DNA of 64,000 nt. Origin: Deltaproteobacteria bacterium. Lineage in GTDB: Bacteria > Myxococcota > Myxococcia > Myxococcales > 40CM-4-68-19. This document shows positions 18,524 through 37,337 of this stretch, one piece after another (within the stretch, counting starts at the first letter, position 1; the number at the start of each line of letters is the position of its first letter). The position numbers and the translations under genes are program-made. Location: NCBI GenBank assembly GCA_005879535.1, contig VBKI01000049.1, positions 1 through 64,000 of the forward strand. Reading direction: 5' to 3'. The notes beneath the pieces were generated by a model, which was not told the DNA's origin, searched no databases, and saw nothing but the letters and a program-made list of their open reading frames with translations.

Positions 18524-19867
18524 GTGCGCGGGCCGGGCGAGATCCTCGTCGTTTCCTGTTACGAGCTCGGCCGGCAGCCGGTGGCGGCAGCCGCGGCGAT
18601 CGCGGCTCTCGAACGCGCGGGCTTCTCGCCGGCAGCCCAGGACATCTCGGTCGAGAAGCTTTCCATCGAAGCGCTGGCCAGGGCGCGCCTCGTGCTCATC
18701 AGCGTCCCCATGCACACCGCGTTGCAGCTCGGCGTTCGCGTCGCCGCCAAGGCGCGCGAGGTGGGCGGGTGCGTGGCGCTGTTCGGCCTCTACGCGACGC
18801 TCAACGCGGAGCACCTGCGCGAGCGGCACGGCGATTTCGTCGCCGGAGAGAACCCCGACGAGCTCGTCGAGCTGGCGCGCGCGATGGAGGCCGGGCGGGA
18901 ACCGGCGCCCGTCGCACTTCGCAAGCGCGACGTGGCGGTCCCGTCCCGCGCGTCGCTCCCGCTGCTCGACCGGTACGCGAAGCTCTCCTGGAACGGCGAG
19001 GAGCGGCTGGTCGCCTCCGTCGATGCCTCGCAGGGATGCAAGCATCTCTGCCGGCACTGCCCCATCGTTCCCGTGTATCGCGGCCGCTTCGTCGCCGTGC
19101 CGCGAGAAACCGTGCTGGCCGACGTCGCACAGCAGATCGCCGTGGGGGCACGGCACGTCAGCTTCGGGGATCCGGACTTCCTCAACGGCCCGACGCATGC
19201 GCTGCGGATCGTGCGCGAGCTGCACGCGCGATGGCCCGAGGTCTCGTTCGACGCGACGATCAAGATCGAGCACTTGCTCCAGCACCGGGCGCTGCTCGCG
19301 GATCTCGCGCAGTGCGGGATGATCTTCGTCACCAGCGCGGTCGAATCGCTCAACGACCGGGTGCTCGCGGCGCTGCACAAAGGTCATGTCGCCGCAGACG
19401 TTCCCGAGGCTCTCAGGGCCGTGCGCGAGGCTGGAGCAGAGCTGCGGCCGACGCTCTTGCCATATACGCCCTGGACCGCTCTCGAGGATTTGCCGGCGCT
19501 CTTCGACTTCGCGGTCGAGCACGACCTCGTCGACGCCATCGATCCCGTCCAGTACACCCTGCGTCTGCTGCTTCCCCCAGGGTCTCTGCTTCTGGACGAC
19601 TCGGGGCCGTGGCTGCGCGGCTTCGACGCGGACGCCTTCACGTGGCGTTGGGAACATGAAGACCCGAACGTCGACGCTCTCTGGCGCGAGTCGGCCGAGC
19701 TGGCGCGCAAAGGCGCCGGATTCGACGAGCTCCGCGCGGTCGCCAACCACGCCTCCCGGCGGCAGACCGCAGCGCGCGCGCCGCGGCGCCGCAGGAGCGT
19801 GCCGCGCCTGACGGAACCCTGGTTCTGTTGAGCAGAGCCCACCGCCGGCCAGTTCGGCCGGATCTAA
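18524..19867 (+). CDS. Radical SAM protein with B12-binding-like N-terminus and a Cys-Sec-Ala-Glu-Pro tail (selenoprotein)
   Basis: GTG start at 18524, with GAGGA-type bases overlapping the yggX stop region. Residues 1-110 resemble a cobalamin-binding-like Rossmann domain. The radical SAM cluster is at Cys172, Cys176 and Cys179 (GCKHLCRHCP). A conventional reading stops at TGA 19829-19831 after RLTEPWFC. The same frame continues sensibly through AEPTAGQFGRI to TAA at 19865-19867. This fits the 'CUAEP/CCAEP-tail' radical SAM family, where the TGA encodes selenocysteine (residue 436, next to Cys435). A 6-bp hairpin begins 13 bases after the TGA. With read-through the protein has 447 residues. 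Substrate unknown. No selenocysteine machinery genes are in the window. Confidence 0.85.
19832..19861 (+). promoter_or_regulatory. Putative bacterial SECIS element
   Basis: Downstream of the in-frame TGA, CCGGCC (19845-19850) pairs with GGCCGG (19856-19861) around the five-base loop AGTTC. The stem begins 13 bases after the TGA, close to the spacing of known bacterial SECIS hairpins, and the loop contains a G-T pair of the type SelB recognises. It also lies inside the coding extension, as bacterial SECIS elements must. Confidence 0.65.
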
Positions 19868-25188: not shown

Positions 25189-26226
25189 GTGGATCTCTAC
25201 GGCATGACGGGCGACGCGCTCTTCGAGTGGGCGCGCGAGCGCGGCGCCACCGCAGGCGCGGCGCGGACCCTGGCGCGCTTTCTTCTCGCACAAGCAGCGG
25301 GGCGTCCCACCGCCGGATCGCCTGCGCGCGACCTTCTGGCAGCGTTCAGCGACGCTCCGGTCCGTCCGCACGCCGACGCGGCGAAGTCGAGCGACGGCAC
25401 CGTCCGCTTCGCGGTCCGGCTCGGGGATGGCGAGCTCGTGGAGACCGTCCTCATCCACCAGCCCGCTTCCGAGCTGCGCCGCAGGGAGCGGTGGACGGTG
25501 TGTCTCTCGTCGCAGGTCGGATGCGCTCGCGGCTGCGTCTTTTGTGAAACGGGCCGCCTCGGGCTCGTGCGCAATCTGAGCGCCGCGGAGATCGTCGTCC
25601 AGTATGCGCTCGCCGCCCGGCATCTCGGGGCGCGACCCGCGAACGTCGTCTTCATGGGGATGGGGGAGCCGCTGGACAATCTGGAGGAGGTCCTGCGGGC
25701 GATTGCCGTCCTCCGCGAGCCGGGCGGGTTCGCCGTGCCAGAGCGGCGCATCACGGTGAGCACGGTGGGGATCGTCCCGCGGATGGACGAGCTGTTCTCG
25801 CGGACCAAGGCGCAGGTGGCCGTTTCGTTGCATGCCATCCACCCGGAGCAGCGCCGCGCTCTGTTGCCGGTAGCGAGAAAATGGAGCTTGACGCATTTGC
25901 GCGAGTGCATCGCCCGCGCGCCCCGCTCGGTCCTGCTGCAGTGGACGCTGATCGCGGGTGTCAACGACGCCGATTCCGACGCCGACACGTTGGCGCGATT
26001 CTGCGAAGGCCTCGACGTCCGCGTGAACCTGATCCCGCTCAATCCGGGCCCCGTGGCGGGGCAGGTGGCGCCGCCGATGGATCGCTGCCGCGCGTTTCAG
26101 AGACGTCTGTCGGGACACGGCGTGCGTGCGCTCCTGCGCATGCCCCACGGGCAGCAAATCGGCGGCGCTTGCGGGCAACTCGCTGGCGCGCGTCGTGCGA
26201 TGGGCAACGCGCCGGCTGCGGGCTGA
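25189..26226 (+). CDS. RlmN/Cfr-like radical SAM methyltransferase
   Basis: The GTG at 25189 has AAGGAG 5 bases upstream, giving 345 residues, shorter at the N-terminus than E. coli RlmN. The 4Fe-4S cysteines are Cys112, Cys116 and Cys119 (GCARGCVFCE). VFMGMGEPLDNLEEVLRAI is the family GMGEP signature, RRITVSTVGIVPRM and VAVSLHA follow, and the second catalytic Cys is in QQIGGACGQLAG. RlmN methylates A2503 of 23S rRNA and A37 of some tRNAs. Sequence alone does not separate it from paralogues of unknown substrate, and the short N-terminus argues for caution. Confidence 0.8.
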   Translation: MDLYGMTGDALFEWARERGATAGAARTLARFLLAQAAGRPTAGSPARDLLAAFSDAPVRPHADAAKSSDGTVRFAVRLGDGELVETVLIHQPASELRRRERWTVCLSSQVGCARGCVFCETGRLGLVRNLSAAEIVVQYALAARHLGARPANVVFMGMGEPLDNLEEVLRAIAVLREPGGFAVPERRITVSTVGIVPRMDELFSRTKAQVAVSLHAIHPEQRRALLPVARKWSLTHLRECIARAPRSVLLQWTLIAGVNDADSDADTLARFCEGLDVRVNLIPLNPGPVAGQVAPPMDRCRAFQRRLSGHGVRALLRMPHGQQIGGACGQLAGARRAMGNAPAAG

Positions 26227-28954: not shown

Positions 28955-29572
28955 ATGGCAAATCAGACGAAGGATGCGTCTTTTCGCTCGGTGATCGATC
29001 GGTTCACGCGCGAGCTGACCGCGGTCATTGCCCGGCAAGTGGAGGAGCAGGTATCCGCCGCGCTTTCGCGCATGCAGATCGGCGGCGCAACCGGGCGGAT
29101 GCGGCTCGACGGCAGGCGTTCGGGGAGGCTCTGCCCGGTGCCCGGCTGCGGGAAGCCGGGGGCCGGACCGCGCAACCGGTGGTTCTGCAAGGAGCACGCG
29201 AGCAAGCTTTCCGCGGCCGAGCAGCGCAGCATCCTCGAGCGCAACCGCAGACTGGAGGCGGAAGGCAAGCTTCCCACGGCGGTGCCCGCGCAGCGCATCG
29301 TGCGGCTTCCCGCCAAGTCTCCGCGGCCGCGCCGGCCCCTCGACATGAGCTGCCGCGTGGAAGGGTGCCCCAACCGGTCCCGCGGCCCGCGCGCCGGGTT
29401 CATCTGCGATCAGCACCGCGCCGAGTTGAGCGCCGATGAACAGCGCGCCGCGCGCGAGCGGTGGAACGCCCGGCAGAAGGGCGGCAATGCCGTCGCCGCG
29501 CCGGAGCAGCCGAAGCCGTTGCCGGCGCCCGTGCCGCCGATCGTGCGCAAGGCCGAATCCGCCGAAGCCTGA
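28955..29572 (+). CDS. Small protein with two Cys/His zinc-binding-like modules
   Basis: The product has 205 residues. After a helical N-terminus (about residues 10-42) there are two related modules: [20 protein letters not shown] then EH, and [20 protein letters not shown] then QH. Both follow C-x4-C-x12-C-x2-H and each is followed by a helix of the form 'a.LSa.EQr...ERn.R'. This is an internal duplication of about 70 residues and probably binds two zinc ions. A Pro-rich tail ends the protein. I do not recognise a named family. It could bind nucleic acid or protein. It precedes msrP by 49 bases. Confidence 0.8.
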
Positions 29573-29621
29573 CGTAACCGGCGGGGTCGAAACGGCGTAC
29601 AGAAGGGCGTGGAGGTCACGC

Positions 29622-30548
29622 ATGTCCTCGTCTGAAATCACGCCGAAGCAGCTCTACGTCCGTCGTCGCGAGTTCCTGAAGCTCGGCGCTGGCAGCGCGC
29701 TCGCGCTGTCGCTTCCCGCCTTCGCAAAGGCCAAGGTGGAGCACGGAGCGAAGCTCGCCGGCGTGACCGCGAATCCGAAGTACGCGTTGGCGGAGGAGAA
29801 GAAGAACGCCTACGAGGACATCACCACCTACAACAATTTCTACGAGCTGGGGACCGACAAGTCGGACCCGAGCGAGAACGCCAGCAAGCTGCAGACGCGC
29901 CCGTGGACGGTGAGCGTCGAAGGCGAAGTGGGCAAGCCGCGGAAGTGGGACATCGAGGAGATCCTCAAGTCCTTCCCCATCGAGGAGCGCGTCTACCGGC
30001 TGCGCTGCGTGGAAGCGTGGTCGATGGTGATCCCCTGGGACGGGTTTCCGCTGGCCGACTTTCTCAAGAAGCACGATCCGACCAGCCGGGCGAAGTACGT
30101 CGCCTTCGAGAGTGCGGTGCAGCCACAGATGCCCGGAGTGAAGGGATATGCGGGAATCCCCTTTCCCTACCTCGAAGGCCTGCGCATCGACGAGGCGACG
30201 CACCCGCTCGCGCTGCTGGTCGTCGGTCTCTATGGCGAGGCGCTTCCCAACCCGGACGGCGCACCCATCCGGCTGATCGTTCCCTGGAAGTACGGTTTCA
30301 AGTCGGCGAAGAGCATCGTCCGGATCAAGCTGCAGGAGACGCAGCCGGCCACGACCTGGAACCAGTATGGGGGCGGTGTCGAGTACGGTTTCTACGCCAA
30401 CGTGAACCCGGACGTGGATCACCCGCGCTGGTCGCAGGCAAAAGAGCGGCGCATCGGCGAGTTCGCGCGGCGCAAGACGCTGATGTTCAACGGCTACCCG
30501 GAAGTGGCCTCGCTGTACGCCGGGATGGACCTGAGGAAGTTCTATTGA
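29622..30548 (+). CDS. msrP: Periplasmic methionine-sulfoxide reductase, molybdopterin subunit
   Basis: The ATG at 29622 gives 308 residues. The twin-arginine signal is [20 protein letters not shown], expected for a Mo-cofactor protein exported folded. The molybdenum ligand Cys is in [20 protein letters not shown]. '[15 protein letters not shown]' and [20 protein letters not shown] are further sulfite-oxidase-fold blocks of the MsrP (YedY) family. It repairs oxidised methionines in periplasmic proteins using electrons from MsrQ, whose gene overlaps it by 4 bases (TTGA). Confidence 0.95.
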
Positions 30549-31144
30549 AGAAGGCGCTGGTCCCCGGAGCGTTCGCCGCGTGCTGCGTGCCCGCGCTCTG
30601 GCTCGCCGTCCAGCTCGTCACCTCGGGCCTGGGGGCCAACCCCATCGAGGCGCTCCTCAACGACCTCGGGTACATCACGTTCGTGCTGCTCGCGCTCACG
30701 CTCGCCTGTACCCCGGCGCAGATCCTGCTCGGTTGGAACTGGCCGATCCGGATCCGCAAGCTCCTCGGCGACTTCTGCTTCTTCTACGCCTGCCTGCATC
30801 TGCTCACCTACACGGTGATCGATCAGGGGTTCGACATTCACGCCATCGCCAAGGACGTCCTCAAGCACAAGTTCATCTTTCTCGGGATGGGGACGTGGCT
30901 CTTGCTGCTGCCGCTCGCCATCACGTCCACGCAGGGCTGGCAAAGGCGCCTCGGTTTCCGCCGCTGGAAGCGCCTCCACCGGCTGGTGTACCTGGCCGGT
31001 GGGCTGGCGAGCTTCCATTTCCTGCTCCGGTTCAAGACGCCGCGGCTCGAGACGGTGGCCTGGATGGGAGTGATCGGCGCGCTTCTGCTGGTGCGCGCGG
31101 TGGAAGCGGCGCGGCGGAGGGCGAGGGTGGTAGAGTCGCCATGA
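30545..31144 (+). CDS. msrQ: Heme-binding membrane subunit MsrQ
   Basis: It begins at TTG 30545 inside the msrP stop, giving 199 residues with about six membrane helices. Typical family segments include [40 protein letters not shown] (heme-ligand His region) and [20 protein letters not shown] (His in a cytoplasmic-edge motif). It passes electrons from the quinone pool or flavin to MsrP. Its stop is one base before the next gene's ATG, so the response regulator is in the same operon. Confidence 0.93.
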
Positions 31145-31145
31145 G

Positions 31146-32534
31146 ATGTCCTCTCGCGCCGCCAGCATCCTGATCGTCGACGACGACGCGAATCTTCGCC
31201 AGAACATCCATTTCATCCTCGAGAAGGGCGGGATGAAGTCGTCGATGGCTTCTTCCGGTGAAGAGGCCCTGCAGCGGATGCGCACCACCGCGTTCGATCT
31301 GGTGCTGCTCGACGTGCAGATGCCGGGCATGGGTGGCCTGGAAGCGCTGCGCATCATGCGGGAGCGGCACCCGGACGTCGGCGTGATCATGTGCTCGGTG
31401 CTCAAGGACATCGCCGTCGCGGTGGAGGCGATGCATACCGGAGCGCTCGATTACGTCACCAAGGACTTCTCCCCGCCCGAACTGATCGCCCGGATACGAA
31501 AGACGCTGGCCCAGCTCCGCGCGGGCCGCGAGCTGGAGCGGCTGCACGACGTCGAGGCCACCCACGTCGGCCGGCCCATGGTGCTGGGGACCTCGCCGCG
31601 GATGCGCGCGGTGGTGCAGGTGGCGGAGAAGATCGCCGCCAAGCCCGTCACCGTGCTGGTGACCGGTGAGAGCGGCACCGGCAAGGAAGTGCTGGCGCGC
31701 TACATCCACGCCCGGAGCGACCGGAGGACCAGTCCGTTCGTCGCCGTGAACCTCCCAGCCATTCCCGCCAACCTGGTGGAGAGCGAGCTGTTCGGACACG
31801 AGCGCGGCTCCTTCACTGGCGCCGACAGGCAGAAGCTGGGCAAGTTCGAGCTGGCGAACGGCGGGACGTTGTTCCTCGACGAGATCGGCGATCTGGCGCT
31901 GGACCTCCAGGCGAAGATCCTCCGCGCGCTGCAAGAGCACGAGATCGAGCGGGTCGGTGGAGAGAAGCCCATCCTGCTCGACCTGCGCGTGATCTGCGCC
32001 ACCAACCGCGAGCTCGCGAAGCTCGTCCAGGAAGGAAGGTTTCGCGAGGATCTCTTCTGGCGTCTGAAGGTGGTCCCCATCGAGCTGCCGCCCCTGCGTG
32101 AACGGCGCGAGGACATCCGCGATCTGGCACAGCACTTCCTCGCCCGGAACGCCGCCGAGCACGGCCGCCTCCCGCAGACGCTCTCCGATGGCGCCCTCCA
32201 GCTCCTGGAGCGGTATCGGTGGCCGGGCAACATCCGCGAGCTGGAGAACATCATGGCCCGGATGACCGTGGTCTGCGACTCGCAGGTGATCGAGGAGTCG
32301 GACCTTCCGTACGACTTCGCGCTCACGGCGGCGGCCACTCCGGAAGCGGAGGCGGGCCAGAGCCTGGAGGCGGCGATCCTCGCCTTCGAGAGGAGCTTCT
32401 TGCGCAAGGCTTTGAAGCGGAACCAGTGGAACCGCAAGCGCACCGCCGAGCACCTGCAGATCGGCTACTCGACGCTCAAGGCGAAGCTCAAGTCTTATGG
32501 CATCGTGGCGGGCGCCGAAGGCGACGACGACTGA
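31146..32534 (+). CDS. NtrC-family response regulator, GSFTGA variant
   Basis: The product has 462 residues. The receiver domain (about 6-120) begins ILIVDDDANLRQNI with the phospho-Asp in LVLLDVQMPGMGG. The AAA+ domain has [31 protein letters not shown] and [12 protein letters not shown]. The sigma-54 contact loop reads GSFTGA instead of GAFTGA. A Fis-type helix-turn-helix is at the end (WNRKRTAEHLQIGYSTLKAK). It is co-transcribed with msrPQ, being 1 base from the msrQ stop. It also converges on a sensor kinase whose 3' end overlaps it by 40 bases, so the kinase is its likely partner. Confidence 0.93.
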   Translation: MSSRAASILIVDDDANLRQNIHFILEKGGMKSSMASSGEEALQRMRTTAFDLVLLDVQMPGMGGLEALRIMRERHPDVGVIMCSVLKDIAVAVEAMHTGALDYVTKDFSPPELIARIRKTLAQLRAGRELERLHDVEATHVGRPMVLGTSPRMRAVVQVAEKIAAKPVTVLVTGESGTGKEVLARYIHARSDRRTSPFVAVNLPAIPANLVESELFGHERGSFTGADRQKLGKFELANGGTLFLDEIGDLALDLQAKILRALQEHEIERVGGEKPILLDLRVICATNRELAKLVQEGRFREDLFWRLKVVPIELPPLRERREDIRDLAQHFLARNAAEHGRLPQTLSDGALQLLERYRWPGNIRELENIMARMTVVCDSQVIEESDLPYDFALTAAATPEAEAGQSLEAAILAFERSFLRKALKRNQWNRKRTAEHLQIGYSTLKAKLKSYGIVAGAEGDDD

Positions 32535-34093
32535 TCGCCGCTGAGCGGCAGGGACAGAGTGAACGTGCTCCCGTTTCCGGGGATGCTCTTCACCGTGATG
32601 CGGCCGCCATGGGCCGCCACGATCCGACGCACGTTCGGAAGGCCCATTCCCACGTGCGCGCCAGTCCGCTTCGTCGACGAGAAGGAGTCGAAGAGGGTGG
32701 CAATCCGCTCGGGAGCGATTCCTCCTCCCTGATCCTCCACCGTAAACAGCGCGTCGTGCTCGGCGCGCCCCACGCGTAGCCGCACCGCCGAGCCGGGTTC
32801 TGAGGCCTCGATCGCGTTGCGCATCAGGTTCAGGGCTGCCCGTTCCAACAGGTAGCGGTCCCCGCGCACCCACAGATCGGAAGGCGCGCGCTGCACGTCG
32901 ATCCCGATGTTTGCCTCTTTTGCGTATCCCTGCCCTCCGGCGCGGACGCTCTCGGCGAAGGCGTTCAGCTCGATGGGAAGGAATTCCGCCGGCTTCGCTT
33001 CGCGCGTCAGATCCGAGAAGTCGGAGACGAAACGGCGAAGCGTTCCGACTTCCGCGCCAATCGATTCGCGGATGCGGGGCAGGTAGTCGGCGTCGTTCAT
33101 GGCGGCGAGCTGCTCGATCTGCTGCAGGACGATGAGGCGATGCCCGAGATCATGAGTGACGCCGACGGCGATCCGGCCCGCGGTCTTGAACCGCTCTTCC
33201 AACTCGAGCGCCGTCAGCATCCGCCGGGCGAGCATGTACCCGACCGCGATGGAGATGAGCAACGTGAGGGCGGCTCCGAAGGCGAGGAAGTGCAGCGCCG
33301 TGCGAGCTCCTCGCAGCGCCTCGTCCGCGGGCTGCTCGACGGCGATGCTCCAGCCGAGATCGGGGAGTGAAGCCCATCCCGCGATCAAGTCGCGGCCTTC
33401 ACCGTTGCGTAGCCGCGCGGGGGCGGGCGTCCCCTTCACCAGGGCGGAAGCAAACGGAGATTCCGCCACGGGCTCGCCGCTGAGGACCGCGGCCCGCATC
33501 GAACCGGAGCCTGCCGCGACGAGGTGGCCGCTGCGATCGAACGCGAGCGCATATCCCTGCTCGCCGACGCGGATGCGCTGGACCTGACGCTGCAACTCGA
33601 GCAGATCCAGCGTGGCGCAGACGGCGCGGCCGGGCTTGCCGGATGGAACGCAGACATCCATCGCCGGCGATAGCTCCGCGATGTACGTCTCGGAGGCGAC
33701 TTCGGTGCCCCGCAGCGCCGCGGCGATCCGGTCGCGATCGAGCATCCGTGGCACCTCGCGCTGCGGCGTATCCGCGGAGAGGAGACGTAGCTTGCCCAGG
33801 CTCGGCGCATCGAGGGCTATGTCGGCGAGACGCCGTACGGCGTCTGACTCGTCCGCGACGGCAGTGCCGATCGCTCGCAGCATTTCGCGCTGTTGCGCGA
33901 TGTACGTGGCGATGCGTGCCGCGGCCTGAGCGGCGATTGCCTCGAGGGCCTCCTGCGACGCGCGCTCGCCGCGGTCACCGAGGATCCGCAGGCCAAAGAT
34001 GGCCAGAAGGAGGACCGGGATGACGCCGCTCGCGGCGATCAGCGCAGTGAGCAGCAAGGCGATGCGGCGCCGCGTCACCGCACGATCTCCCAT
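32495..34093 (-). CDS. Membrane sensor histidine kinase with a periplasmic Cache-like domain
   Basis: The ATG at 34093 gives 532 residues and overlaps the upstream lipoprotein gene by 19 bases. A membrane helix (about 10-35, LLLTALIAASGVIPVLLLAI) precedes a roughly 240-residue periplasmic domain of Cache type, with GWASLPDLGWSIAVEQPADE near its end. A second helix (FGAALTLLISIAVGYMLA) follows. The kinase core has the H-box VGVTHDLGHRLIVLQQIEQL, N-box LNLMRNAIEA, and G-boxes VEDQGGGI and HVGMGLPNVRRIVAAHGGRI. There is no PAS or receiver domain. Its position after a peptide-binding lipoprotein suggests that lipoprotein or its ligand is the input. The output is probably the convergent NtrC-type regulator. 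Confidence 0.92.
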   Translation of the reverse strand: MGDRAVTRRRIALLLTALIAASGVIPVLLLAIFGLRILGDRGERASQEALEAIAAQAAARIATYIAQQREMLRAIGTAVADESDAVRRLADIALDAPSLGKLRLLSADTPQREVPRMLDRDRIAAALRGTEVASETYIAELSPAMDVCVPSGKPGRAVCATLDLLELQRQVQRIRVGEQGYALAFDRSGHLVAAGSGSMRAAVLSGEPVAESPFASALVKGTPAPARLRNGEGRDLIAGWASLPDLGWSIAVEQPADEALRGARTALHFLAFGAALTLLISIAVGYMLARRMLTALELEERFKTAGRIAVGVTHDLGHRLIVLQQIEQLAAMNDADYLPRIRESIGAEVGTLRRFVSDFSDLTREAKPAEFLPIELNAFAESVRAGGQGYAKEANIGIDVQRAPSDLWVRGDRYLLERAALNLMRNAIEASEPGSAVRLRVGRAEHDALFTVEDQGGGIAPERIATLFDSFSSTKRTGAHVGMGLPNVRRIVAAHGGRITVKSIPGNGSTFTLSLPLSGDQSSSPSAPATMP

Positions 34094-35346
34094 TCGGGCA
34101 GTGTTTCGAGTGCCTCGTACGGCCCGAGCCTCGGATTCACGATCCTGACGTCGACGACCGCGATCTGTTCGCGGGTGCATACGAAAGCACCGGGGGGATC
34201 CTCGCGAAGAGCGGCATGAGCCGCCCTCCAGTCACCGGCATCGACGGCCCGATCGACCGCGGGATTCGAGTATCCGATGAGGTTGTACGGTGCTCCGGTC
34301 CGCCATACGAGAGCGAGCGCGCTCGGTGGCCATCGGAGCGGACGCGCCGTCACCAGATCGAAATCGCGATTCCTCACCCGCGATACCGCCTCTTCGGGCA
34401 CCAGCTGGGAAACTTCGCCGGCCCGGTCCGCCAGAACACGTCGCGATGCCAGCGCAAGCCGCTCGAACGGGCCCCAGCTCACGACGCGCAAAGGCCGTCC
34501 TGCAGGGGGGCCCGGCTCATCGCCGCCGCTCCCCTCGGCGCACTCCCCGCCGTCGTACGCCAGGTCTCGCACGCGTTGCGAACCAAGGATGCGTTCGAGC
34601 TGTAATCGTTCGGATCGCGGCAATTCGGGGTTGAAGAGAATGGAGTCCGTACTTCGTCCCGTGCCGCGGATGATCTGCAGCGATGGCACGCCTCTGAAGA
34701 ACTCGAGCCAGCGCGACTCCACATCGACGATCAGATTCGTGTCTCCTTTGAGCGTGTGCGCGAAAGCATCGCGAGGAGTGTCGTAGGCAATGATGCGCAC
34801 GTCATTGATCCGTCCAGCCGCCGGGATCCGCCGCGCCAACCGGAGCTCCGTCGGCGTCTGAGACGCAACCGCGAAGGGTCCAGTTCCGAGGAACTTGTCC
34901 TGCACGCGGCGGAAGATGAGCGCATTCAGGAGCAACGCGTCTGCTGGCAGGCCTTCCTGGCGCGACTCGATCAGCAGGGCGCCATCCGACTTGATTGCCC
35001 GCAAGCCGGCGGGCTCCAGTGATTGGATGACATCCACATCCGTCACCGGCGTCCCGTCGCTGAAGGTGGCGTCGCGTCGGACCTCGACGCGCAGCTCCTT
35101 GTTCGACAAGCGATCGACGCTGGCGGCGAGGCTTGGCCTCAGCTCCCCTGCGGCGTCGATCGTGACGAGCCTCTCATATACCCATGGCTGGGCGATGGAA
35201 GCCAAGGCGGTTTCGTTGCCCGTGGGGGCCAGTTCGCCCAACGGCCCCCACATGGCAAGCTTGACGACGAACGCCTCGCGTGATGGCGGCGATGTGCAGC
35301 CCAGGATGATACTGAACAGCAATAGCCGATACACGCTGCCTGCCAC
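34075..35346 (-). CDS. DppA/OppA-like solute-binding lipoprotein
   Basis: GTG at 35346 with a purine-rich site (GCGAAAG) just upstream, giving 423 residues; a GTG at 35334 is an alternative. The lipobox is FSIILGC. Family 5 solute-binding features are ALASIAQPWVYERLVTIDAA then GELRPSLAASVDRLSNKELR, VRRDATFSDGTPVTDVDV and DKFLGTGPFAV. It is about 100 residues shorter than classical DppA. No permease or ATPase genes are nearby, so it is more likely a receptor than part of an importer. It lies between the 27-aa peptide gene and the kinase gene, which suggests peptide recognition linked to signalling (inference). Confidence 0.85.
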   Translation of the reverse strand: MAGSVYRLLLFSIILGCTSPPSREAFVVKLAMWGPLGELAPTGNETALASIAQPWVYERLVTIDAAGELRPSLAASVDRLSNKELRVEVRRDATFSDGTPVTDVDVIQSLEPAGLRAIKSDGALLIESRQEGLPADALLLNALIFRRVQDKFLGTGPFAVASQTPTELRLARRIPAAGRINDVRIIAYDTPRDAFAHTLKGDTNLIVDVESRWLEFFRGVPSLQIIRGTGRSTDSILFNPELPRSERLQLERILGSQRVRDLAYDGGECAEGSGGDEPGPPAGRPLRVVSWGPFERLALASRRVLADRAGEVSQLVPEEAVSRVRNRDFDLVTARPLRWPPSALALVWRTGAPYNLIGYSNPAVDRAVDAGDWRAAHAALREDPPGAFVCTREQIAVVDVRIVNPRLGPYEALETLPEWEIVR

Positions 35347-35395
35347 CTTTCGCAGTACGGCTTTGCGGAGTCAAACGCTGCGAAAGGCGCCGCGG

Positions 35396-35479
35396 TCATG
35401 CGACCGGAGGACTTATCACGATCATTCCGCAGACGGTCGGAACGCGCACGGACTTCCTCTTCGACCGGTTGATCTTCAT
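35396..35479 (-). CDS. 27-residue peptide, candidate RiPP precursor
   Basis: This short gene starts at ATG 35479 with GGAG 7 bases upstream, 18 bases after the stop of the radical SAM gene, and ends at TGA 35396. The peptide begins with a strongly basic leader-like part (MKINRSKRKS) and ends with a hydrophobic core-like part (VCGMIVISPPVA) holding a single Cys and a Pro-Pro. Size, position and two-part character match precursors of ribosomally made peptides modified by radical SAM/SPASM enzymes. I do not recognise the family. The modification and mature form are unknown. The chance that it is not translated is real because it is so short. Confidence 0.65.
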   Translation of the reverse strand: MKINRSKRKSVRVPTVCGMIVISPPVA

Positions 35480-35497
35480 GGGTGTCTCCAGTGTTGG

Positions 35498-36844
35498 TCA
35501 GGCTGTTTCCGTCCACTCCGGTTGCGGGAACTCCGTGAGGTAGCGGTGGACGACGCTCTCGCGGAAACTCGACTCGAACATGTCCTTCTTGCAGGCGACT
35601 TCGTCGCGGCGGCCAGTCTTCAGGAACTTCCCGCCCAGGCACCCGCCGACGCACACCGGGAGATACGGGCAATCGCCGCATTTTTCCCAAGGCCTCAGCT
35701 CGACGAGCGGCGCCACCTTCTCGGGTGCCGAGGACGCAACGTGCGCGACCTCGAGTCCCGGGAGCCCGGCGACCACCGGGCATTTGTACACGCGGCCTTC
35801 GGGATCGATGGTGTAGTTGTTCTTCCAGTGCAGCTCGCAGGGCCCGAGGAGGCCTTCGAGCGTCCTGCCCTGATGAGCAGTCGGCGTCATCTTCCGGCGC
35901 TCGATCGACGCGTTGAGCTGCACCAGCGTCTGCGTCTCCTGCTTTTCGCTGCAGCCGGTGCAAGTGCCTTTACTGCGTTGCTGCGTGTCGACCATCGGCC
36001 GGAACATCACTCCGGCAAGGAGCGGCGCGACGCCGCTCTTCTCGAACCGATCGAGCAGCGCTTCGAACGAGGCCGCCTGGTCGGGGAAGAAGTGCCCCCC
36101 GACGAACACCTTGCACCCGGCCTGGGCGAGCGCAACGACGTTGTCGAAGATCACGTCGAAGGTGCCGCGGCCGTCGCGATAGACGCGCATCCGGTCGTGC
36201 GTTTCCTTGTCGCCGTCGAGAGTGACCTTGAAGGCGCCGGGGCCGAAGGAATGCATCTTCCGGGCGAACTCCACGTCGAGCTGGATGCCGTTCGTGGTCA
36301 TGTCCCAGCGGAACGTGCCGCCTCGGGCCTTCATCGAAGCGGACAGCACCTGCGCGGTGCGCAGGCAGTAGTCCTTGCGCGTGGTGGGCTCGCCGCCGAA
36401 GTAATGGACCTGCAGCGTGCGCAGTCCGCGCTCGTCGACCTGGCGCAGGAGCCACTCCAGCGTTGCATCCTCGGTCGGCGCCGACATCTTGGTGAACGAC
36501 GGGTGCTCCTTCTGGAAGCAATAGTTGCAGGCGAGGTTGCACTGCAGCGTTGGCATCAAGGTCACGTACATCGTGCCGGGGACGCCTTCGCTCGCCTTGT
36601 CCAGGTATGCGCGGACCCTGACATCGTCCTCGAGGCGATTGCTTACGAGAAATCCGTCTTCGACCAGCGCGTCCCGCGCTTCGCGCTCGTCCGCCGTCGC
36701 CGGCTGATTCCCCGCGGACCACCGAGCGATGGCGCGGAGCGTCGCTTCGTCGATGCCGGCGTAGCGATCCTCGATCACGCTGTAGAGGACGTGCTCGCCC
36801 GGCCGAACGTTCTCGTAGGCGACCACGAATCGGGAGAGCTGCAT
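35498..36844 (-). CDS. Radical SAM/SPASM peptide maturase
   Basis: The ATG at 36844 gives 448 residues. The frame stays open to 37141, but that extension is Arg-rich and unlike a protein. N-terminal residues 1-90 (MQLSRFVVAYENVRPGEHVL) look like a peptide-recognition region. The radical SAM cluster is Cys102, Cys106 and Cys109 (CNLACNYCF). 'VHYFGGEPTTRKD' and MTTNGIQL are typical of maturases. The C-terminal SPASM domain has about ten Cys, including CTGCSEKQ, GPCELHW, YKCPVVAG and CGDCPYLPVCVGGCLGGKF. Relatives install thioether, C-C or other links in peptides. The 27-aa peptide gene 18 bases downstream is the obvious substrate (inference). Confidence 0.9.
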   Translation of the reverse strand: MQLSRFVVAYENVRPGEHVLYSVIEDRYAGIDEATLRAIARWSAGNQPATADEREARDALVEDGFLVSNRLEDDVRVRAYLDKASEGVPGTMYVTLMPTLQCNLACNYCFQKEHPSFTKMSAPTEDATLEWLLRQVDERGLRTLQVHYFGGEPTTRKDYCLRTAQVLSASMKARGGTFRWDMTTNGIQLDVEFARKMHSFGPGAFKVTLDGDKETHDRMRVYRDGRGTFDVIFDNVVALAQAGCKVFVGGHFFPDQAASFEALLDRFEKSGVAPLLAGVMFRPMVDTQQRSKGTCTGCSEKQETQTLVQLNASIERRKMTPTAHQGRTLEGLLGPCELHWKNNYTIDPEGRVYKCPVVAGLPGLEVAHVASSAPEKVAPLVELRPWEKCGDCPYLPVCVGGCLGGKFLKTGRRDEVACKKDMFESSFRESVVHRYLTEFPQPEWTETA

Positions 36845-36857
36845 TGCGCGACCCCTA

Positions 36858-36873
36858 CGCAACGGTGGTGCCA
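36858..36873 (-). promoter_or_regulatory. Probable sigma-54 (-24/-12) promoter of the maturase operon
   Basis: On the minus strand TGGCAC (36873-36868) is followed by 5 bases and TTGCG (36862-36858). The invariant GG and GC are exactly 10 bases apart. Transcription would start near 36847, only about 3 bases before the maturase ATG, so the message would be almost leaderless. A sigma-54 activator gene lies at the other end of the locus. Confidence 0.6.
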
Positions 36874-37115
36874 GCTCTCTCAGCGTCTCTCCCCCAGAGG
36901 AGACGAGCCAGTTTCCGGGCCGGCGGCCAGCGTTCCGGCCGCGCTTCGGGGCTCGGAACCGGGCCTCGACCTGCGCGGTTTCGCGGCGCGGGATCGCGCG
37001 GCAACGCCGAAAGAACTCAATCGGTGCGCGCTTCGCCGCGGGGCCAGAGTGCTGGCTGGAGCGGCCAGTTCCCCGGCCCTGAAGGTGGCGCGCGAATTGC
37101 TCGCGACGCGATTTC

Positions 37116-37337
37116 GTGACTCCGCAAAAGCAAAAGATCATCGCGGTGCGCCACCTCCGTGCAGGAGGGCGCTTGATTCCCGTTCACTTCTCCCGGAATG
37201 CCGGAGGCTCCGTCGCGGGACGAGCCGTGCTCGGCGCCCAGGATACCCCCATTCTCGACGGGCCCGATCCCGAAGCGGTGCTCGCCGTCCTGCGCGACGT
37301 GATCGACGGCCTCTTGATGGCGCGCCGATCCGCGTAG
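37116..37337 (+). CDS. Small hypothetical protein
   Basis: GTG start, 73 residues, divergent from the maturase operon. It contains GGRLIPVHFSRNAGGSVAGR and DGPDPEAVLAVLRDVIDGLL, a short beta part followed by an amphipathic helix, with GC-rich third positions like neighbouring genes. I do not recognise a family. It ends 15 bases before the convergent membrane protein gene. No clear ribosome binding site is visible. Confidence 0.5.
   Translation: MTPQKQKIIAVRHLRAGGRLIPVHFSRNAGGSVAGRAVLGAQDTPILDGPDPEAVLAVLRDVIDGLLMARRSA

Follow-up and report, generated by a model that had tools for sequence, protein, structure and literature searches.

Five genes at positions 31,146 to 36,873 of a 64,000-nucleotide stretch of Deltaproteobacteria bacterium DNA (assembly GCA_005879535.1, contig VBKI01000049.1, positions 1 to 64,000; the whole stretch is referred to as the window) form a real, conserved cassette. 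They encode a predicted radical SAM/SPASM maturase, a 27-amino-acid (27-aa) precursor peptide, a solute-binding lipoprotein, a sensor histidine kinase and an NtrC-type regulator. Our reading, to which we give slightly less than an even chance, is that the cassette is dedicated to signalling by a ribosomally synthesized and post-translationally modified peptide (RiPP) with positive feedback – the peptide would act on the lipoprotein, the lipoprotein on the kinase, the kinase on the regulator, and the regulator on the sigma-54 operon. The window genome is 5.16 Mb in 118 contigs, and the features of the locus are:

35498-36844 (-): predicted radical SAM/SPASM maturase, 448 aa (Pfam, NCBIfam, cysteine pattern, profile match to 5wgg)
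35396-35479 (-): 27-aa precursor peptide, 84-base frame (found at all 12 assessable loci; its leader is basic, its tail variable and its only Cys is Cys17)
34075-35346 (-): solute-binding lipoprotein of predicted family-5 fold, putative peptide receptor (lipobox, AlphaFold2 model, fold match)
32495-34078 (-): dCache-type sensor histidine kinase (Pfam HATPase_c, dCache_1; HDLGH box)
31146-32534 (+): predicted NtrC-type response regulator with receiver, sigma-54 AAA+ and Fis helix-turn-helix (HTH) domains (Pfam; convergent with the kinase)
36859-36873 (-): predicted sigma-54 promoter TGGCACCACCGTTGC, starting 29 bases before the maturase ATG
36925-36940: putative activator dyad 1 (dyad motif; minus-strand sequence GGCCGGAACGCTGGCC)
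36950-36965: putative activator dyad 2 (dyad motif; minus-strand sequence GGCCCGGTTCCGAGCC)
37063-37078: putative activator dyad 3 (dyad motif; minus-strand sequence GGCCGGGGAACTGGCC)
37116-37337 (+): divergent 73-aa protein of a family found only in cassette genomes (next to the maturase at all 13 loci)

The peptide frame begins 18 bases past the maturase stop, with a GGAG six bases ahead of its ATG, and the lipoprotein gene has a GTG start 49 bases after the peptide frame. The kinase gene overlaps the lipoprotein gene by 4 bases, and the convergent regulator gene overlaps the 3' end of the kinase gene by 40 bases. All five genes and both overlaps are as reported in a preliminary description of this DNA; the promoter, the dyads and the 73-aa family are parts absent from that description.

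Orthologous maturases, 46-87% identical, were found in 13 of the 99 relatives searched (the window counted), an ortholog being an end-to-end match, or one cut only by contig ends, with E 1e-120 or better. Of these, ten belong to the family of the window (f1) and the other three to another myxobacterial family (f6). The relatives with matches are soil and groundwater metagenome-assembled Deltaproteobacteria/Myxococcales and one Anaeromyxobacter sp. The five-gene arrangement first noticed in the window was found in f1 and f6 relatives. The peptide frame is kept directly after the homologous maturase in all 12 genomes in which the site is assembled, window included (G007 is outside this count, its contig stopping within the maturase), and the lipoprotein is the next gene after the peptide at all 12 of these assessable loci. 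The G001 locus is split over two contigs and was counted as one because the second contig starts with the maturase end. The kinase sensor domain is present in every one of the 13 cassette genomes, and across the phylum 17 of 195 genomes have it; the linkage of lipoprotein and kinase to the maturase thus holds in relatives. An ortholog of the regulator was found in 12 of the 13 cassette genomes, and in 12 of the 60 genomes searched (1e-180) in all. The cassette genome without it is G004, in which the contig ends inside the kinase. Of the 12 genomes that have the regulator, 10 have it converging on the kinase.

The genes flanking the cassette in f1 (a VTT-domain protein, an amidohydrolase and others) are not beside the f6 cassettes, save for one weak 59-residue match; the gene set is therefore kept by more than shared synteny. 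In G009, which is 98% complete, the regulator, maturase, peptide and 73-aa protein were all not found. These four are gained or lost as a group, and this counts for autoinduction by the peptide. A phage or plasmid origin was considered and rejected: a search of viral contigs found no relative, and the sole plasmid match, in Methylomagnum, is distant (25.8% identical).

The peptides keep a basic leader (consensus MKIKRSxRKSTR) and have one Cys each, at position 17 (18 in G011), followed by a tail of 5 to 10 residues – exactly five in 5 of the 12 peptides. Ser6, Arg8, Arg12 and Cys17 are invariant in 11 aligned peptides. In the C-terminal part only the Cys is invariant and the tail is hypervariable, and the conserved C-terminal VCGMIVISPPVA-like core expected in the preliminary description is not kept; nor do the peptides share an Asp/Glu at a constant spacing. 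Compared with its closest relative, the window has only synonymous changes in codons 1-12 (nonsynonymous difference pN 0, synonymous difference pS 0.38). This pattern in the leader, with conservation at 12 of 12 loci, rules out a chance short frame. A profile built from 11 of the 12 peptides (the G001 copy alone was found independently) matches 187 of the 195 genomes by chance at E<=1, and outside the 12 no match is better than 1.7e-4. The window peptide has no match to an NCBIfam or Pfam family and six peptides from relatives have none to an NCBIfam family, and as judged from these comparisons the peptide is outside every described family in the libraries searched.

The maturase matches the Pfam Radical_SAM model (5.6e-16), and the SPASM Pfam model found no match in the window maturase. 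The cysteines of the radical SAM motif CX3CX2C (C102, C106, C109) are invariant in all 10 aligned maturases, as are the SPASM-type cysteines (C336, C355, C389, C392, C398, C402, C418) and the pattern CX13GX4C...CX2CX5CX3C...C; the comparison was made with the generally known SPASM cysteine pattern. By motif and by the conserved short precursor adjoining it, the enzyme is predicted to be a radical SAM/SPASM peptide maturase. Its best NCBIfam model, over the whole length, is TIGR04280, 'geopeptide radical SAM maturase', which all 10 aligned maturases match. The window maturase differs from that family in scoring 227.7 bits against a cut-off of 400, a score reached in none of the 195 phylum genomes. 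Below 1e-40, TIGR04280 matches 14 of the 195: 12 of the 13 cassette genomes and two with a maturase of another family, 21-23% identical to that of the window. No mention of geopeptide or TIGR04280 was found in the open-licence literature. The next NCBIfam models, PapB, CefB and TIGR04463 at 113-143 bits and the SCIFF maturase at 74 bits, are all far under their cut-offs. The nearest solved structure by profile is 5wgg (E 5e-21), which we take to be the SCIFF maturase CteB. Thioether chemistry is suggested because the next models are named thioether-forming and because 5wgg is the best solved relative.

A scan of GTDB species genomes added two maturase relatives, in a Byssovorax metagenome-assembled genome (54% identical) and as a fragment in one from Terriglobia (52%). 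The Terriglobia fragment (L071:7-1179) is at a contig start and is either a transfer or a binning error. The neighbourhood of the Byssovorax gene has no lipoprotein, kinase, sigma-54 promoter or dyads. A 43-aa Cys peptide ending WYTCAYMVF, with no NCBIfam family, is encoded 472 bases downstream of that maturase (L070:9657-9788). Two more radical SAM domains are found within the window, at 19028-19471(+) and 25510-25974(+).

The lipoprotein matches Pfam SBP_bac_5 at 5.8e-7 (29.4 bits, under the gathering cut-off of 32.4), and its lipobox Cys17 is invariant in all nine aligned lipoproteins. An AlphaFold2 model (pLDDT, the predicted local distance difference test, 87.1) aligns with 5u4o over 392 residues with a Z of 28.4 and a root-mean-square deviation of 3.2, and on the strength of the model the protein has a family-5 binding-protein fold. 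The fold matches include oligopeptide receptors, nickel-chelate receptors (NikA, CntA), the methanobactin receptor 5icq and AapF, which is described in its structure entry as binding a signalling molecule; the modelled fold by itself does not select the ligand. Among six complete loci, the mean pairwise identity is 38.5 for the lipoprotein, 57.0 for the maturase, 61.6 for the kinase sensor, 62.3 for the kinase core, 70.4 for the regulator receiver, 79.1 for the regulator AAA+ domain and 58.4 for the 73-aa protein. The lipoprotein is thus the fastest to diverge, like the peptide tail, and the kinase sensor is conserved, a pattern that suits a lipoprotein reading the tail and a kinase reading the lipoprotein.

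The kinase has a Pfam HATPase_c domain (1.9e-24), an HDLGH box and a dCache_1 match at 3.8e-11 (43.4 bits, just under the cut-off of 45), and two Cys in its sensor are invariant in nine of nine. The regulator has Response_reg, Sigma54_activat and HTH_8 domains, all over the Pfam cut-off, and by these domains it is predicted to be an NtrC-type sigma-54 activator. Two bases before the regulator gene ends a pair of genes (29436-31144) for a molybdopterin oxidoreductase (Pfam Oxidored_molyb) and a membrane protein, which we presume to be MsrP and MsrQ. The pair also adjoins the regulator in those f1 relatives that cover this stretch.

All 13 loci have a strict TGGCAYN5TTGC sequence 28-31 bases ahead of the maturase start, and one RpoN DNA-binding domain (Sigma54_DBD) is encoded in the window genome; by promoter pattern and genomic RpoN, the cassette is predicted to be a sigma-54 regulated operon. 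Taking the last C of TTGC as -12, the predicted transcript start precedes the maturase start codon by 2-5 bases in all 13, and the message would be near-leaderless unless the start codon has been misjudged. In some loci the interval between promoter and start contains purine runs resembling ribosome sites. Upstream of the promoter, GGCY-N8-RGCC dyads are found in 13 of 13 loci, with 39 sites compared to a mean of 1.4 and a maximum of 7 in 300 shuffles; with any other spacer length from 3 to 18, the count is 0 to 14. The window contains four strict dyads, three of them upstream of the maturase. Among the 12 places in the genome with the strict sigma-54 pattern, dyads are upstream of the cassette promoter only (at L144, the check covered the 100 bases upstream of the promoter match). 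The preliminary description had the regulator driving its own operon. The sigma-54 promoter and upstream dyads, both in 13 of 13 loci, speak for this part, with the regulator a putative binder of the dyads.

The 73-aa gene is upstream of the maturase and divergent from it in 13 of 13 loci. Its profile matches 14 of the 195 genomes, the fourteenth match being a fragment at a contig start in an incomplete genome, G005. The model of the protein (pLDDT 84.9) has four strands and a helix; it has no PDB match under E 0.37 (cut-off E<=0.001), which does not show a new fold.

The proposed circuit would work as follows. The sigma-54 promoter would drive the maturase, precursor peptide, lipoprotein and kinase as a single unit, and the maturase would cross-link the single Cys to a nearby residue of the tail. 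The leader would be cut off and the tail exported via an unlinked housekeeping system. The outer lipoprotein may then bind the modified tail, and its loaded form would engage the dCache domain of the kinase. Judging from the architecture, the kinase would phosphorylate the convergent NtrC-type regulator, which would bind the upstream dyads and open the sigma-54 promoter. A fuller statement of this circuit is more tentative and, in our estimate, somewhat on the improbable side: the modified, Cys-linked peptide, with its hypervariable and strain-specific tail, would be an autoinducer with the family-5 lipoprotein as its receptor; the dCache kinase and sigma-54 activator would complete a positive feedback loop acting on an operon with a near-leaderless message; where a lineage has lost the peptide half and keeps only the lipoprotein and kinase, it would be a listener; and the whole would be a new kind of bacterial communication.

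Several observations weigh against the peptide circuit. The cassette contains no exporter or leader peptidase, and in G008 and G011 the regulator is on a separate contig with no kinase adjoining. The strict sigma-54 pattern occurs at 12 places genome-wide, compared to 13 for a reversed control; because it is no commoner than the control, the weight of the promoter comes from its position and conservation, not from rarity alone. The dyad motif was derived from the same sequences used for counting, its strict form (201 sites genome-wide) is rarer than the reversed pattern (383), and several relatives have paired dyads at 1-3 other places as well. Co-variation between tail and lipoprotein over 12 loci (partial r 0.46, p 0.004) drops to 0.18 (p 0.10) without G002 and to -0.06 (p 0.64) without G002 and G006, and that between tail and kinase sensor goes from 0.34 (p 0.008) down to 0.18 (p 0.17) on the same exclusion. 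Because the signal rests on two close pairs, it is taken as suggestive only. Finally, four genomes (G022, G039, G037, G031) keep the lipoprotein and kinase but have none of the maturase, peptide, 73-aa gene and regulator, and the pair may therefore sense something else.

The other paired dyads are mostly intergenic (G000:C47:140432-140468, G003:C667:6681, G004:C143:22259, and in G007 C7:36869, C12:13063 and C156:34664), and no sigma-54 motif was found at six of these other places examined. A REP-like repeat was considered, as pairs occur elsewhere, and is disfavoured by their low numbers. The nine nearest genomes (G000-G008) have 22 dyad pairs per strand compared to 11 for the reversed control, so the dyad is kept as a candidate binding site but not an exclusive one. 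Two of the other dyad places precede genes for 'IDRF'-type small proteins and two precede PilZ-like frames (both named by reading), and another protein might therefore bind the dyads.

The four genomes that have the lipoprotein-kinase pair alone belong to f6, are Anaeromyxobacter-like and 99-100% complete, and their lipoproteins are full-length (E 1e-96 to 1e-115). The pair (L140-L143) is directly behind a gene that flanks the f6 cassettes, and no sigma-54 motif was found in these loci. In the kinase tree the four cluster with the f6 cassettes (support 1.000), to which they are sister, and their branches are longer; the lipoprotein tree does not place them in one group. A string search found no HDL/HEL box in the G031 kinase. 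It is simpler to suppose that the peptide half was lost, in which case the pair must serve some other use in these genomes, or none; the four pairs are possible listeners or re-used sensors.

In the next most likely explanation, which we rate as possible but doubtful, the cue read by the lipoprotein and kinase comes from outside (a peptide of another microbe, a nutrient or a metal complex), and the RiPP, turned on by the regulator in response, is an output with another job, such as an antimicrobial, redox or protective one. The persistence of the pair without a peptide in four genomes is in keeping with this, as is the range of ligands that family-5 receptors bind. In the parts of two published accounts available to us, streptococcal RaS-RiPPs are under quorum sensing without being its signal (PMC13361665), and a binding protein adjoining a kinase need not activate it, none of three such proteins doing so (PMC11113362). 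An outside cue is harder to reconcile with a receptor and kinase placed within the operon they would activate, right behind the peptide at 12 of 12 assessable loci, and with a receptor that diverges fastest. The four exceptions also lack the regulator and have kinases on longer branches, so the role of the pair in them may have changed.

It is unlikely that the peptide is a small metal-binding RiPP made on demand, with the lipoprotein recognizing the metal-peptide complex and the kinase reporting metal status. The invariant Cys would suit such a role, as would the receptor fold, which NikA, CntA and 5icq, the methanobactin receptor, also have, but the cassette has no uptake transporter, each peptide has one Cys and a tail of 5-10 residues, and the tail has no conserved second ligand residue. 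Less likely still is a peptide that acts inside the cell or is a precursor of a protein-maturation cofactor, with the lipoprotein-kinase pair merely co-regulated; the lack of an exporter and the short, basic leader with no obvious secretion signal agree with it, whereas cofactor precursors keep their core and the 5-10 residues after the Cys are hypervariable here.

Radical SAM peptides have been tied to cell-cell signalling before, in the streptococcal RaS-RiPPs controlled by Rgg/SHP (PMC13361665) and the SCIFF-derived ranthipeptides of clostridial quorum sensing (PMC8326336), as far as the available parts of these sources go. The streptococcal regulator is the cytoplasmic Rgg (PMC13361665), and the available part of the clostridial account describes no receptor (PMC8326336); unlike the cassette, neither system is given a binding lipoprotein, a kinase or a sigma-54 promoter in these parts. 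Searches of the open-licence literature found no paper joining radical SAM, RiPP, histidine kinase, solute-binding protein and quorum sensing, none with at least four of radical SAM, RiPP, sensor kinase, substrate-binding protein and myxobacteria, and none on SPASM and RiPP in Anaeromyxobacter. To our knowledge, peptide pheromone circuits are little known in environmental myxobacteria. If the peptide circuit is real, it would join radical SAM RiPPs, binding-protein-fed kinases and sigma-54 feedback in one peptide-signalling unit with diversified tails, an unusual route for a Gram-negative bacterium. Even with the peptide as output only, the cassette defines two unnamed families, one of RiPP precursors and the other of 73-aa proteins, together with a clear promoter.

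The cassette resembles several known systems in part. The thioether-forming SPASM maturases (PapB, CefB, TIGR04463, SCIFF) are nearest to its enzyme after TIGR04280, but their targets are Cys-rich and the cassette peptide has one Cys, with maturase scores far below the cut-offs. In the LuxP-LuxQ system, a periplasmic binding protein feeds a sensor kinase, with the sigma-54 regulator LuxO downstream. The cassette likewise has a binding-protein gene directly before and overlapping a kinase gene, and a sigma-54 regulator downstream in the pathway; it differs in its family-5 lipoprotein instead of LuxP, its dCache kinase, and a putative ligand encoded in the same operon. The agr and ComQXPA systems are Gram-positive peptide autoinduction circuits in which AgrB or ComQ is the processing enzyme. 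Like them, the cassette would combine a processing enzyme, a variable-core precursor with a short Cys-containing tail, a kinase and a regulator in one autoregulated unit. It differs in being Gram-negative, in having a radical SAM enzyme in place of AgrB/ComQ and an additional binding lipoprotein, and in its predicted sigma-54 control. By analogy, the proposed circuit may be likened to agr-type autoinduction with a LuxP-like receptor step, and would be a member of neither system.

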